From: Actinobacteria bacterium HGW-Actinobacteria-6
GTDB lineage: Bacteria > Actinomycetota > Coriobacteriia > Anaerosomatales > Anaerosomataceae
Reading direction: 5' to 3'
Assembly: GCA_002841295.1 (NCBI GenBank)
Contig: PHEU01000021.1
Span: forward strand, 1-64,000
Length of the DNA stretch: 64,000 bases
Shown here: positions 38,965-48,019 of the stretch, one piece after another
How the letters are laid out: every line of letters begins with the position of its first letter
Position numbering within the stretch: position 1 is the stretch's first letter
Position numbers and translations under genes: made by a program
Notes under the pieces: generated by a model
Databases searched by the model: none
Told to the model about the DNA's origin: nothing
What the model saw: only the letters and a program-made list of their open reading frames with translations

Positions 38965-39020
38965 GCGCTGTATCACGTCCGCTTATGCGGTTACTACCGC
39001 GCGTCGCACCGAGGAGCATC

Positions 39021-40049
39021 ATGGAGCAGGTTCGTCTCACGCAGCTCTCCACCAAGTCGGGTTGAGCCGCTAAGTGGGGTCCGGGAGACCTCGCAGCCGT
39101 GCTCGAGCACATGTCGCCAGGTACATCGGATGACCTTATGGTCGGCTACGAGACCTCCGACGATGCCGCAGTCTATCGTCTCGGCGATCAGGCTGTGCTG
39201 CTAACGGTCGACTTCTTCACGCCGATGGTGGACGACCCGTATGACTTCGGGCGCATCACCGCGGCCAACGCGCTCTCCGATGTCTATGCAATGGGCGGGC
39301 GACCGCTCACGGCCATGAACCTCCTGGCGATGCCGTGCTCACTTCCCCCGGAGATAGCCGCGCGGGTGCTGCAAGGCGGTGCGGACAAAGTTCGCGAGGC
39401 CGGAGCGGTGATCGTCGGCGGTCACACCATCGACGACAAAGAGCCCAAGTACGGACTCTCGGTCATGGGCGTCTGTGATCCCGACAAGGTCGTGCGAAAC
39501 GTCGGTGCGCGTGAGGGTGACGTGCTCGTGCTCACCAAGCGCCTCGGGGTTGGCATCATGAACACCGCACTCAAACAAGGCTTCGAGACTGAGGCCACGC
39601 TGGCCGAGGTCATCGAGAGCATGGCGCACCTCAACCGCGCTGCTGCCGAGGCAATGGTCGAGGTCGGCGTCAACGCCGGCACCGATATCACCGGCTTTGG
39701 GATCGCGGGGCATGCCCGAGAGATGGCGCTTGGCAGCGGGGTGTCGATGGAGCTTGAGCTCGCGTCGCTGCCGCTCTGGCGTGACGTGCTGCAGTACTCG
39801 GCAGATGGCGTAGTGCCCGGTCGCACTGCTGATGTACTGGCGTTCCTTGAGGGCTCGGTCGACTGGGGCCCTGCTGACGCTGCATGGCGCGGCGTGCTTG
39901 CCGATCCGCAGACGAGTGGCGGTCTGCTCATGTCGTTGCCTGCCGAGCGCGCTGAGGCGCTGCTTCTGGCGCTCAGTGAGCGGGGCGAAGAAGCGAGCAT
40001 CGTCGGTCGCGTCATTGCCGGCGAGGCCGGTCACATCATCATCAAATAG
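39021..40049 (+). CDS. selD: Selenide, water dikinase SelD, itself a selenoprotein (Sec15)
   Basis: SelD makes selenophosphate from selenide and ATP. Downstream of 39099 the frame is unmistakable SelD (LMVGYETSDDAAVYRLGDQ, VDFFTPMVDDPYDFGRITAA, GGHTIDDKEPKYGLSVMG). The proper N-terminus begins at ATG 39021 and reads MEQVRLTQLSTKSG, then an in-frame TGA at 39063-39065, then AAKWGPGDLAAVLEHM. This places the TGA exactly where E. coli SelD has catalytic Cys17 and other SelDs have Sec. A hairpin follows the TGA, and selA, selB and tRNA-Sec are nearby. I therefore read it as Sec at residue 15, total 342 residues. A standard caller would start at GTG 39099 and lose the catalytic residue and the nearby Lys18. 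Confidence 0.92.
39063..39092 (+). promoter_or_regulatory. SECIS-like element of selD (UGA codon and hairpin)
   Basis: UGA at 39063-39065 is followed by a hairpin with stem GGGGTC (39076-39081) and GACCTC (39087-39092), one G-T pair, and loop CGGGA containing the GG expected for SelB contact. The loop begins 16 nt after the UGA, within the range of bacterial SECIS elements. Confidence 0.7.
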
Positions 40050-40085
40050 CGAGCGGCCGTGCGGGCCGCCGGAAGGGAGCGCGCT

Positions 40086-40424
40086 GTGGGGAAAGTCGTC
40101 TTTGTGAACTCCGACAAGATCGGTGACGGTGAGCCGGAACTCGGTCTGAAGCTGATGCAGTCGTTTCTCTACTCGCTGGCACGTACGGAGGCCAAGCCCT
40201 CGGCGGTGATCTTCATGAACAGCGGCGTGCGGCTCACGTGCGAGCGCTCGACCGCGCTCGACGACATCAAGTTGCTGGCCGCAGACGGCGTCGCGATCAA
40301 GAGCTGCGGGACGTGCCTCGACTACTACGGGCTCATGGATTCGCTCGCGGTGGGCGAAGTCGGCGCGATGGGCGGTACGGCCGAGACCTTCATGGCTGCC
40401 GATGACGTCGTGAGCGTGGGGTAG
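40086..40424 (+). CDS. yedF: YedF-like selenium-metabolism protein (DsrE fold)
   Basis: 112 residues from a GTG with GGGAG upstream. The DsrE/YedF-type fold shows VGKVVFVNSDKIGDGEPELG, VIFMNSGVRLTC, then AIKSCGTCLDYYG with a CxxC pair, and GEVGAMGGTAETFMAAD. Such proteins are usually found in selD/selA clusters and are annotated as selenium-metabolism YedF. Here the N-terminal TusA-like domain found in longer versions is absent. It probably handles reduced sulfur or selenium for SelD; that is inference from context. It lies 36 nt after selD, with a GC-rich hairpin in between. Confidence 0.85.
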   Translation: MGKVVFVNSDKIGDGEPELGLKLMQSFLYSLARTEAKPSAVIFMNSGVRLTCERSTALDDIKLLAADGVAIKSCGTCLDYYGLMDSLAVGEVGAMGGTAETFMAADDVVSVG

Positions 40425-40485: not shown

Positions 40486-41880
40486 ATGGATACTCAATCG
40501 CTGTTGCGCTCGCTTCCCAAGGTCGACCGGTTGCTCGAACGCGCGGATATCGTCGCGCTTGCCGAGGCGCACCCTCGCGCAGTCGTCACCGATGCCATCC
40601 GGGAGACGCTTGACGCTGTTCGCGCCGAGATACTCTCTGGTATGCGTGATGAGCTTGCCGAGGATGACGTTGCCGCAGCGGTGATCGATCTGGTGGAGCT
40701 CAAGTCGACGCGCTCGCTTCGGCGGGTTATCAACGCCACAGGCATCGTCGTGCACACGAACCTCGGCCGGTCGCGCCTGGCGCGCGAGGCTGTGGCGGCG
40801 GTGGCCGAGGTCGCTGGCGGCTACTCGACGCTTGAGTACGACGTAGCCAGCGGCGAGCGTGGCAGCCGGCACAGCCACGTCGAAGCGCTCATCTGCAAAC
40901 TCACCGGCGCCGAGGCCGCGATGGCGGTCAACAACAACGCGGCGGCTGTTCTGCTCGGCCTGGCGGGACTTGCGCGTGGCAAGGAAGCGATCGTGAGCCG
41001 CGGGCAGCTCGTGGAGATCGGCGGCAGCTTCCGCGTGCCGGACGTGATGGCCGAAAGCGGCGCCACTATGGTCGAGGTCGGCACCACCAACAAGACGCAC
41101 CTGAGCGACTACGAGAAGGCGCTCACGCCCGCAACCGGGCTGCTCCTCAAGGTCCACACCAGCAACTACCGCGTGGTCGGTTTCACCGAGGAGGTCACGC
41201 TCAGCGACTTGGTGGGTCTGGCTGCCGGGCACGGTATTCCCGTCATGGAAGACCAGGGTTCCGGCGTGCTCGTCGACTTGCGCAAGTGGGGCCTGCCGTA
41301 TGAGCCCACGGTCGCCGAGTCGATCGCTGCCGGTGCCGACGTGGTCACGTGCAGCGGCGATAAGCTGCTCGGCGGACCACAAGCCGGCATCATCGCAGGT
41401 AAGTGGCACGTGATAGCCGCACTCAAGAAGCATCCGCTTGCCCGCGCCATCCGGCTCGACAAGATGACGCTTGCGGCGCTCGAAGTGACGCTTAGACTGT
41501 ACCTCGACGAGGACCTCGCCCGGCGTGATATCCCGACGCTCTCAATGCTCTCGGCAACGAAGGAATCAATCGCCGAGCGGGCCGTGCGCCTGGCCGATGA
41601 GATCGGGCGCGCGTGCGGCGACGCGTACCTGGCGGGGACGTCCGAGGACGTCTCGCGTGCTGGCGGCGGCGCGATGCCGATGGAGGACATCCCCACGGTG
41701 GTCGTGGCGATCGTCCCGCAGCGCATGAGCGTGACCGAGCTTGAGGTGCGGCTGCGCGCGGCTGACACGCCCATTGTGGCGCGCATCAACGCCGACCGGC
41801 TGCTCATCGATCCTCGAACACTCACGCTTGGCGAGGAAGCCGAGATCGTGGCCGTACTTGCGGCGCTCGTGGAGCGCTAG
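40486..41880 (+). CDS. selA: L-seryl-tRNA(Sec) selenium transferase
   Basis: 464 residues. SelA is a PLP enzyme converting Ser-tRNA(Sec) to Sec-tRNA(Sec) with selenophosphate. Motifs are [55 protein letters not shown], and the PLP lysine [15 protein letters not shown] (Lys293). The C-terminus [15 protein letters not shown]-type sequence (here [13 protein letters not shown]) is standard. Complete length. It is followed after 3 nt by selB. A TAGAAT hexamer 15 nt before the start may be its own -10. Confidence 0.97.
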
Positions 41881-41883
41881 AGC

Positions 41884-43791
41884 ATGACCGGCCCATCGCT
41901 CGTCCTCGGCACAGCCGGACATATCGACCACGGCAAGTCCTCACTGGTGCGCGCGCTCACCGGCACGGATCCCGATCGCCTGCCCGAGGAGAAAGAACGC
42001 GGCGTCACCATCGAGCTTGGCTTCGCGCAGCTCGAGCTGCCGAGCGGGCGCACGATGGGCGTCGTCGACGTCCCAGGTCACGAGAAGTTCGTGCGCCAGA
42101 TGGTCGCGGGCGCTACCGGCATCGATGTGGTGCTGTTCGTGGTCGCTGCCGATGACGGCGTCATGCCGCAGACCCGCGAGCACTTGGCGATCATCGATCT
42201 GCTCGGCATCCCGAAGGGCGTTGTTGCGCTCACCAAGTCAGACCTGGCCGATGAGGACTGGATCGAGCTGGTCTCGGAAGACATACGCACGCTGCTGGAG
42301 GGCACCTCGATCGACGGCGCGCCGATCGTTCCGGTCTCATCCAAGAGCGGAGCCGGGCTGCCCGAGCTGCTACTGGCAATAGACGAGGTGGCTGCCGAGG
42401 CAAGTGCGCGGCAGTCGAATCTCCCGATGCGGCTTCCGGTCGACCGGGTGTTCACGATCTCCGGCGCGGGCACCGTCGTCACCGGCACGCTGTGGAGCGG
42501 CTCGGCCGAGCGCGACGCGCCGGTGGAGTTGTACCCCTCGGGCGTGAAGGGGAGGATCCGCTCGGTGCAGATGCACGGCGAGCAGGCCGAGAAGGCCGTC
42601 GCCGGCAACCGGGTTGCCATCAACCTCGCCGGTGTGGAGCGAGACGAGGTCAACCGCGGCGATATCGTGGCCGAGCCCGGCACGCTCACCGTCACCGAGC
42701 GATTCGACGCGCACATCACGTATCTCGGCAGCGAGACCAAGCCGTTCGAGAGCGGTGCCCGCGTTCACGTGCATCACGGCACACGCGAGGTGCTTGGCCG
42801 CGTGTTGCTCATGGATGTGCCATCGCTGCCGCCGGGTGGCCGTGGGGTCGCTCAGATACGCCTGGAGGAGCCGCTTTCGCCGCGCTACGGTGACCACTTC
42901 ATCATCCGTTCGTACTCGCCGATGTGGACGATCGGCGGCGGCGTCGTGCTCGACGCGCTGCCTCCCCGTCGCACGCAGCTCAAGCACTACGAGCGCAGTC
43001 TGCTCGAGGCGCTCATCGCGCACGATCTCTCCTCGGCGGCCATCGGGCTGCTTGCCGCACGTGCGCTGCCGATGACCTCGGCACAAGTCGCGCTCGCGCT
43101 TGGCGTCCCGCGCTCCGGAGTCGCCGACGACCTCAACAAGGCGGATCTGCAGCGTCTCAAGGTGGGCAACGACACGTACTTTGTCACCACGGGCGCGCAG
43201 CAGCACTTCCTCGATTCGATCGAACGTGAGCTGCTCAAGTTCCACGAGCAGAACCCGAAAGCGACCGGCATCGCCGCGCTTGCGCTGCGCGACAGAGTCG
43301 ATCGTCGGCTGGAGCCGAAGGTCTTTGACGCGCTGCTCGCCGTCGCGGTCGAGCGTTCTGCTGCCGTACTCGCCGGCGGTGAGGTCCGACACCCCAAGGC
43401 CGCTTCAACTGCGCTTGCCGAGGGAGAAGCTGCCCGCGACGCGCTCGTGCCGCTGCTACGCTCTCAGGGGCTTGCACCGGCAACGGTGGTCGAGCTTGCA
43501 GCGGAGGTTGGCATCGATGCGGGCGTCGTTCGCAAAGCGCTCACAAAGCTGGTGGCCGAGGGCGCGATCGTGCGCGTCGGACCCGAGCTGCACTTCGACG
43601 CGGGGGCTGTTGAAACCGCACGCGATCAGATCGTTGCGCACCTGAAGCAGCATGGTGAGATCCTGGCGAAAGAAGCGCGCGATATCACGGGAAGCAGCCG
43701 CAAGTTCATACTGCCGCTGCTCGAGTACTTCGATGCGCAGGGAATCACCAAGCGCGACGGCGACGTACGCACGCTCGGCAAACGCGGCTAG
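41884..43791 (+). CDS. selB: Selenocysteine-specific elongation factor
   Basis: 635 residues. SelB carries Sec-tRNA(Sec) and binds the SECIS hairpin to insert Sec at UGA. The G-domain shows [45 protein letters not shown] and [10 protein letters not shown]-Tu-like domains 2 and 3 follow ([17 protein letters not shown]), then four C-terminal winged helices ([34 protein letters not shown]) that bind mRNA. Length is normal. The last codon shares the palindrome CTAG with the stop of the convergent histidine kinase. Confidence 0.97.
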
Positions 43792-46372: not shown

Positions 46373-47797
46373 CTAGTCATCGTCGGGTCCGTCCGCACCG
46401 TGGCACTTGGTGCACGAGGCTGAGGAATACCCCTTGGTGTGGCAGTTGGTGCAGGCGAAACTCTTGTACGTGTGCTCGCCGCCCGGGATTCGAGGATGGC
46501 TGAATGTCGCGCTCCTCCATGCCTTGGTGGGCGTGTGGCACGACGAACATGAGGTGCCGTAATGCTTCGACGGTGTCGAGTGGCAAGACGAGCAGGATTT
46601 CGATGACGGGTGGTAGAACCTCCACGATCCGCCGGGCTTGTGGCACGTCACGCACGACTTGCTCGAGTGTCCACTCGGGCGCTTATGGCAGTTCGTGCAG
46701 GTCGCGCCACTGCCGGGGTGTGTGAACTTTGCGCTTGCGAACGCCACCTTCGGCGAGTGGCATGCAGAGCATGCGCCCGAGTAGTGCCTTGAAGGCGCCT
46801 TGTGGCAGTTCGAGCATGCCTTCGACGTCGGGTGCTGGAACTTCCAGGAGGCGCCCGTTTCGTGGCAGGTGATGCAGGTGCGCGTCGAGTGCGCTGCGGG
46901 CCGGGTATGGCAGTCCGTGCATGTCGCGGTCGATTGCGGGTGCTGGAACTTCCAGGTGACGCCCGTCTTATGGCACGTCGTGCATGCACCGGTCCGGTGC
47001 TCGGCGGGTGTGGTGTGGCAGTCGGTGCATGTCGCGGCGTTGTCCGGGTGGGAGAACGCCCACGACGCTGCGGTGGCGTGGCATGCGGTGCACGAGGTGC
47101 CCACACCTGTCGTCGTGGCCGTCACGCTGGCAAGCTGAGGATGCCTTTCGGCTTCGCGGGTGTGGCAGTTTGCGCATCCGGTTGCAGCGAGGTCATGGCA
47201 GCTTGAGCACGTCACCCTCATGTGTCCGGGCACGTTCGCGACGCCTCTTCCGGCCGAGGCGAAGATCAGGAGTTCGCGGTTCTGCGCGGCGGCGGTATCG
47301 AGGATGCCCGCCTCAGCAAGGGCGACTGAGGTCACTGTGTGCCCGGCGCTCGCGTGGCAGTCAACGCAGGAGCGGCTGCCCTGGTGCGTCTCGTGGGAGA
47401 AGCCCTCGATGCCGGTGTCGATCGTGCCGCTGTGGCACGCCAGGCATCGGCTGTCGGGGACGGCGGTTACAGCACCCGGGAACTTCGGGTCGGTCGTGAA
47501 GTGGTTGTAGACCTCTTTGAGTGCGACGAACTTATGCGAGACTTGCGCTTCAAGGCCCGGGTCGACGTGGCATGAGATGCATGAGACGTCCGAGTGCGCG
47601 CCAGCATTCCAGGCGGTGTAGTAGGGGGTCATCTCGTGGCACGAGGTGCAAAACGCCGGGCGGCTTGTGTATTCAGTGGCCGCGACGCCTCCGCTGATGA
47701 GTGCGGCAAGCACAACGACAGCCGCAAGTGCGGTCACCGCCGGCCGTCGTATCAGTGCAGCGAAGAGTCGTTTCATGGGCTTCGGCTCCGGTTTCAC
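46373..47797 (-). CDS. Multihaem c-type cytochrome with 19 CxxCH motifs
   Basis: About 474 residues. A membrane anchor (AVTALAAVVVLAALISGGVA) is followed directly by a NapC/NrfH-like opening, FCTSCHEMTPYYTAWNAGAH then DVSCISCHVDPG. I count 19 CxxCH haem-attachment motifs. The C-terminal two-thirds is a repeat of about 25-30 residues of the type CTDCHTxPAxH..CxTCHxxGxxWKFQHP. Each motif should bind one haem covalently outside the membrane, forming an electron wire, plausibly from the quinone pool to extracellular acceptors (inference). Starts: GTG 47797 or ATG 47776. Confidence 0.92.
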   Translation of the reverse strand: MKPEPKPMKRLFAALIRRPAVTALAAVVVLAALISGGVAATEYTSRPAFCTSCHEMTPYYTAWNAGAHSDVSCISCHVDPGLEAQVSHKFVALKEVYNHFTTDPKFPGAVTAVPDSRCLACHSGTIDTGIEGFSHETHQGSRSCVDCHASAGHTVTSVALAEAGILDTAAAQNRELLIFASAGRGVANVPGHMRVTCSSCHDLAATGCANCHTREAERHPQLASVTATTTGVGTSCTACHATAASWAFSHPDNAATCTDCHTTPAEHRTGACTTCHKTGVTWKFQHPQSTATCTDCHTRPAAHSTRTCITCHETGASWKFQHPTSKACSNCHKAPSRHYSGACSACHSPKVAFASAKFTHPGSGATCTNCHKRPSGHSSKSCVTCHKPGGSWRFYHPSSKSCSSCHSTPSKHYGTSCSSCHTPTKAWRSATFSHPRIPGGEHTYKSFACTNCHTKGYSSASCTKCHGADGPDDD

Positions 47798-47925: not shown

Positions 47926-48019
47926 GGAGGCGAATGGGTCCTGGTGGGCTCCGCGGTCTTCAAAACCGACGTGGGGCGTGAAGAGCGTCCTGGGTGTGTT
48001 CTCGCACACGCCTCCGCCA
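47926..48019 (+). tRNA. selC: Selenocysteine tRNA (anticodon TCA)
   Basis: A 94-nt tRNA. The acceptor strand GGAGGCG pairs with CGCCTCC, then G and an encoded CCA. The D-arm GGGTCC-TGGT-GGGCTC has six pairs and a short loop, a hallmark of tRNA-Sec. The anticodon loop is CTTCAAA (UCA). A long variable arm GGGGCG..CGTCCT follows. The T-arm is odd: GTGTG-TTCTCG-CACAC gives a 6-nt loop without the usual TTCRA and shares bases with the acceptor stem. Confidence 0.87.

Follow-up and report, generated by a model that had tools for sequence, protein, structure and literature searches.

A predicted selenocysteine-containing SelD with a nearby SECIS hairpin, and a tRNA-Sec with a shortened T-loop, in Actinobacteria bacterium HGW-Actinobacteria-6

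Introduction

The selD gene of Actinobacteria bacterium HGW-Actinobacteria-6 is interrupted by an in-frame UGA, which raises the question of whether its product is itself a selenoprotein and whether the genome holds what is needed to read that codon. Among prokaryotic selenoprotein families, Sec-containing SelD ranks second in breadth of distribution (PMC1794560, PMC4561486, PMC13188914), and it accounts for 19% of SelD genes in a reference survey (PMC4561486), in agreement with the preliminary description of this locus, which had treated such proteins as known from other bacteria. The window analysed here is a stretch of 64,000 nucleotides of contig PHEU01000021.1, and the features on which the argument rests are collected in Table 1.

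Table 1. Positions of the selenium-related features in the window and elsewhere in the genome (G000)
Feature	Position	Strand	Details
Shine-Dalgarno-like GAGGAG	39011..39016	+	shortly 5' of ATG 39021; also in relatives L041, L042, L044
selD, selenide water dikinase	39021..40049	+	342 aa, predicted Sec = residue 15
In-frame UGA (predicted Sec15)	39063..39065	+	aligns with catalytic Cys of solved SelD; conserved Lys18 three residues later
bSECIS hairpin GGGGUC-CGGGA-GACCUC	39076..39092	+	loop 39082-39086, 6-bp stem
yedF-like DsrE-domain gene, selenium metabolism	40059..40424	+	TIGR03527; probable start GTG 40088
selA	40486..41880	+	464 aa, intact; ORF and profile match
selB	41884..43791	+	635 aa, intact; ORF and profile match
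tRNA-Sec (selC), anticodon UCA	47926..48015	+	Rfam RF01852 53.5 bits, gathering 47; CCA encoded just downstream
Formate-dehydrogenase-like gene L151	G000:C7:65329-66696	-	in-frame UGA in ARI-U-HSSTV
Formate-dehydrogenase-like gene L152	G000:C18:36322-36789	-	in-frame UGA in ARI-U-HSSTV

Reading frame and identity of SelD

The frame that opens at ATG 39021 contains a single internal stop, the TGA at codon 15, and closes only at TAG 40047-40049, as had been described. The read-through product matches the SelD profile TIGR00476 with 377.8 bits (cut-off 125) over residues 5-310, hence across the UGA, and NF002098 with 339 bits (cut-off 299). A search of the whole genome recovered the same locus, marked with one TGA inside, and found no second SelD, the sole other match lying far under the cut-off. 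When SGU15AAK18 is aligned to GCGCK of the solved structure 3u0o and to GCAAK of 2yye, the UGA falls on the catalytic Cys and is followed by Lys at +3, which bears out the earlier assignment of these residues to the catalytic Cys/Sec loop. In particular, 2yye aligns with 226 bits over residues 3-333 and reads SGCAAKxGPGDL for SGUAAKWGPGDL here, its deposited sequence having Cys where the present gene has UGA. We take 2yye to be the SelD of Aquifex aeolicus, whose native gene presumably encodes Sec at the site given as Cys. A frame-altering error near the UGA, named beforehand as a possible objection, finds no counterpart in the comparison with two same-genus genomes, in which selD carries no frame-breaking indel.

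A different gene model is offered by the mechanical list of open reading frames, in which selD begins at GTG 39099, is 316 aa long and loses the N-terminal loop. Translation from this GTG, with the upstream match as a relic, is highly improbable: the residues upstream and the codons of the hairpin described below are strongly conserved across the order, the GAGGAG run stands before ATG 39021, and a SelD truncated in this way would be devoid of both the catalytic Cys/Sec and the Lys. Misannotation of the gene by standard callers had been called certain; plain ORF calling does yield the 316-aa truncation, but the word is too strong, as selenoprotein-aware pipelines exist. We therefore correct the gene model, and selD almost certainly encodes a Sec-containing selenophosphate synthetase with UGA15 read as Sec.

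A SECIS hairpin directly downstream of the UGA

A hairpin starting about 11 nt after the UGA with GG in its loop had been proposed, and it is indeed seen at 39076 with the loop CGGGA, 16 nt (39066-39081) separating the UGA from the loop. The published bSECIS model (quoted in PMC13188914) asks for an apical loop of 3-9 nt, an upper stem of 4-16 bp, a G in the first two loop positions, a minimum free energy of at most -7.5 kcal/mol and a UGA-to-loop spacing of 16-37 nt. The selD hairpin lies within all of these bounds, with its 5-nt loop (second base G), 6-bp stem, 16-nt spacing and a fold of -8.3 kcal/mol for 39074-39093, so that the claim of a valid bacterial SECIS holds by that model.

The real evidence for the hairpin is codon conservation, energy alone being weak. 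When conserved degenerate codons were ranked in 37 SelD genes by excess synonymous conservation, the first four places were taken by GGT14, GGT20, CCG21 and CTC24, with GAC23 close behind; GGT makes up 20% of the Gly codons in these genes, yet it occupies codons 14 and 20 in 37/37. Across the order, every UGA-type SelD examined (57/57) has the hairpin with G at +18 and G or U at +19, and 98.4% of the hairpin cells are paired, against 31-73% when the hairpin is slid. Two further lines were set aside as proof: covariation is scant, as the single compensatory change on both sides of the stem (G-C to A-U, in L186) is equalled in 39/500 shuffles and is not significant, and the fold energy gives z of -1.1 to -1.9, with 5.75% of synonymous shuffles folding the region equally well or better. 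GGT14 (39060-39062) stands directly before the UGA and outside the hairpin stem, and its constancy might reflect a context effect on UGA reading.

In the bSECIS of Escherichia coli fdhF, the hairpin begins about 11 nt after the UGA and the apical GG of the loop AGGUCU lies at about +19,+20. This register is common to the SelD hairpin and to those of both FdhA genes found in this genome, in each of which a hairpin with GG at +19,+20 comes after the UGA of the catalytic site; all three UGA genes observed thus have their SECIS in a single register. The selD loop CGGGA differs from that of E. coli fdhF.

Conservation among relatives

SelD is present in 244/398 genomes of the class, and among the matches listed in this search, all those from the organism's own order carry one TGA (that of G129 has a TAG as well), the stop-free forms belonging to other families, mostly f18 and f22. 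Among the loci read base by base, the context K-S/A-G-U-AAK is kept in 57/57 UGA-type SelD genes of the order, and this conservation excludes a chance origin of the UGA context and hairpin. The UGA is therefore retained in relatives as would be expected from the initial reading, the nested exception being L181 (G326, f25), a Cys-type gene (UGU) lying among UGA-type genes, in which the hairpin no longer matches and which apparently records a change from Sec to Cys. One sequence kept in the SelD tree, L094, has a very long branch, appears to be frameshifted and is not trusted.

By the SelD locus, the nearest named relative is HGW-Actinobacteria-1 (L041, 89% identity), while L069, from a record named Anaerosomatales, shows 71% identity. 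Anaerosomatales is the former OPB41 of the class Coriobacteriia (PMC9686372). A subsurface order, apparently Anaerosomatales, is thereby added to the Sec-type SelD record, and its selD is uniformly Sec-type in the sample. Loss of the Sec trait was considered for the same-genus genome G115, in which neither SelD nor SelB was found, and was rejected, as its FdhA has a UGA and the genome is only 86% complete. Another genome, G149, has two SelD genes (on C84 and C32), both with UGA.

With the known bacterial Sec-SelD genes, the present one shares a UGA for the catalytic residue in the N-terminal loop, the downstream bSECIS and the presence of SelA, SelB and tRNA-Sec in the genome. It differs in that its hairpin loop lies at about +17, not at about +32 as in most SelD of the other phyla sampled, and in the T-loop deletion of the accompanying tRNA-Sec.

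Two alternative SECIS sites in SelD genes

In the SelD genes sampled, the SECIS lies at one of two alternative sites, which are separated by about 15 nt, exclude each other and are used by different bacterial lineages. Under a rule that was set after looking (G and G/U at the expected loop positions, at least 4/5 pairs), the near hairpin, with its loop at about +17, is found in 57/57 members of the order, in 13/13 genes from families f17, f19, f20, f21 and f27, and in 2/34 from other phyla. The far hairpin, with an AGGUUCU-like loop at about +32, is found in 24/34 genes from other phyla and in 6/8 from f18 and f22. By lineage, it is the site of Coriobacteriales forms and of most of the other phyla in the sample. 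Both hairpins in one gene occur in 0/112 SelD genes (loci L026-L197). In the SelD tree, the near-hairpin genes of the class are set off from the rest by a branch with 100/100 support, and the f18/f22 genes cluster with Bacillota sequences. No description of the two sites was found in the literature searched, the coverage of which was partial. Two SECIS sites within one gene family offer a clean comparison for the tolerance of SelB towards the distance between UGA and loop.

Selenium genes and a proposed route of decoding

The yedF-like gene, selA and selB follow directly downstream of selD. The preliminary description had placed selA, selB and a tRNA-Sec close by; this stands for selA and selB, which adjoin, and the tRNA-Sec lies about 8 kb past selD but is 3 nt short in its T-loop. 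No match to YbbB/SelU was found in the genome, and use of selenium for selenouridine was rejected on this ground.

In the proposed route, SelB and Sec-tRNA-Sec would bind the hairpin just 3' of UGA15, which would then be decoded as Sec, and Sec15, in the selenium-binding loop near the N-terminus of SelD, would serve as the nucleophile in catalysis. The enzyme would provide selenophosphate to SelA, which would turn seryl-tRNA-Sec into Sec-tRNA-Sec; as SelD supplies this substrate, neither SelD itself nor the two UGA-type formate dehydrogenases could be made without it. The frame, the position of the UGA, its conservation, the hairpin, the machinery genes and the other UGA genes can be read from the DNA, and from these we infer insertion of Sec at UGA15 and catalysis by SelD. 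An inactivating lesion in tRNA-Sec would turn UGA15 into a stop, so that SelD, dependent on its own Sec, would not be made.

A tRNA-Sec with a four-nucleotide T-loop

The tRNA-Sec gene of the window has a T-loop (47999-48002) that reads UUCU in place of UUCGAUU, three nucleotides (GAT) being gone between 48001 and 48002. The 7-nt loop UUCGAUU is kept in 34/34 intact tRNA-Sec genes read from relatives, and the window copy scores 53.5 bits against about 68 in same-genus copies, roughly 14 bits lower; by alignment by eye, the shortened loop is the main cause of this drop. ARAGORN does not call the window copy, whereas it calls the relatives' copies as SeC in 10/10 tested (six relatives and four further copies). 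The anticodon, the 6-bp D-stem with its 4-nt loop, the long variable arm, G73 and CCA are unaltered, the predicted cloverleaf is otherwise unchanged, and the promoter-like ACAATAC upstream is preserved.

Bacterial tRNA-Sec has a 12-bp AT-stem (PMC5330540), and the genes of the clade share this architecture as a 7-bp acceptor with one mismatch and a 5-bp T-stem, together with the 6-bp D-stem and 4-nt loop, G73 and CCA; the 4-nt T-loop is found in the window copy only. Relatives G059, G071 and G081 have two full-scoring tRNA-Sec genes. The present genome, 95% complete, has no second tRNA-Sec above the gathering score in the Rfam search, and its sub-gathering hits were dismissed as extra copies, as similar-scoring hits in four relatives are tRNA-Ser.

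In the elbow of tRNAs, A58 forms a reverse-Hoogsteen pair with U54. Loss of three of positions 57-60 removes this pair, and reduced function of the tRNA-Sec is therefore likely on structural grounds. A genuine deletion would probably compromise the entire Sec chain. Because SelD depends on Sec in its own sequence, a single 3-nt lesion, if inactivating, would stop all selenophosphate production at once.

Origin of the deletion

The deletion reflects an error of assembly, a loss of very recent date or an oddity that is tolerated. Since selA, selB and all three UGA/SECIS sites found are intact, it should be an error or of recent date, unless a tRNA-Sec with the short loop still works; a lesion that is both real and inactivating would be very young, there being no decay in selA, in selB or in any of the three UGA genes. 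Compared with two same-genus genomes, selD, selA, selB and the genes for a response regulator and a kinase have no frame-breaking indels, which makes a generally poor assembly unlikely and leaves room for a single local error. For a sequencing or assembly error, with an ordinary tRNA-Sec in the organism, we see about an even chance: the loop is intact in all the relatives read, strong selection on selC is to be expected and isolated errors occur in metagenome assemblies, but this is a clean 3-nt deletion at no homopolymer, it does not correspond to a collapse of the TTCG repeat, by which 5 nt would be lost, and the neighbouring genes have no such errors.

That selC is dead in this strain, with a real and inactivating deletion, UGA15 now a stop and selenium use just lost, appears unlikely. 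The only tRNA-Sec found has lost the GAT of its T-loop and is skipped by ARAGORN, and the clean reading frames of selD, selA, selB and the genes for the histidine kinase and response regulator speak against an assembly riddled with indels; yet no damage is seen in the promoter-like ACAATAC, the CCA end or any dependent gene, and the roughly 5% of the genome that is missing could hold another copy, some relatives having two. We hold only tentatively the joint proposition that the deletion is real, whether because a 4-nt T-loop works or as a first step of Sec loss, and that SelD has two alternative SECIS sites. If confirmed by reads, the deletion would be a natural experiment on what portion of the tRNA-Sec elbow is required or, alternatively, a snapshot of selenium-trait loss amplified by the self-dependence of SelD.

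Two neighbouring regions were also observed. In the same-genus genome G013, about 1 kb between selA and selB (L203:3290-4307), absent from the window, resembles a nucleotidyltransferase/HEPN toxin-antitoxin pair. In the window, the minus strand at 46373-47797, adjoining the tRNA-Sec, encodes a multihaem c-type cytochrome that is rich in CxxCH motifs and resembles NrfH at its N-terminus.
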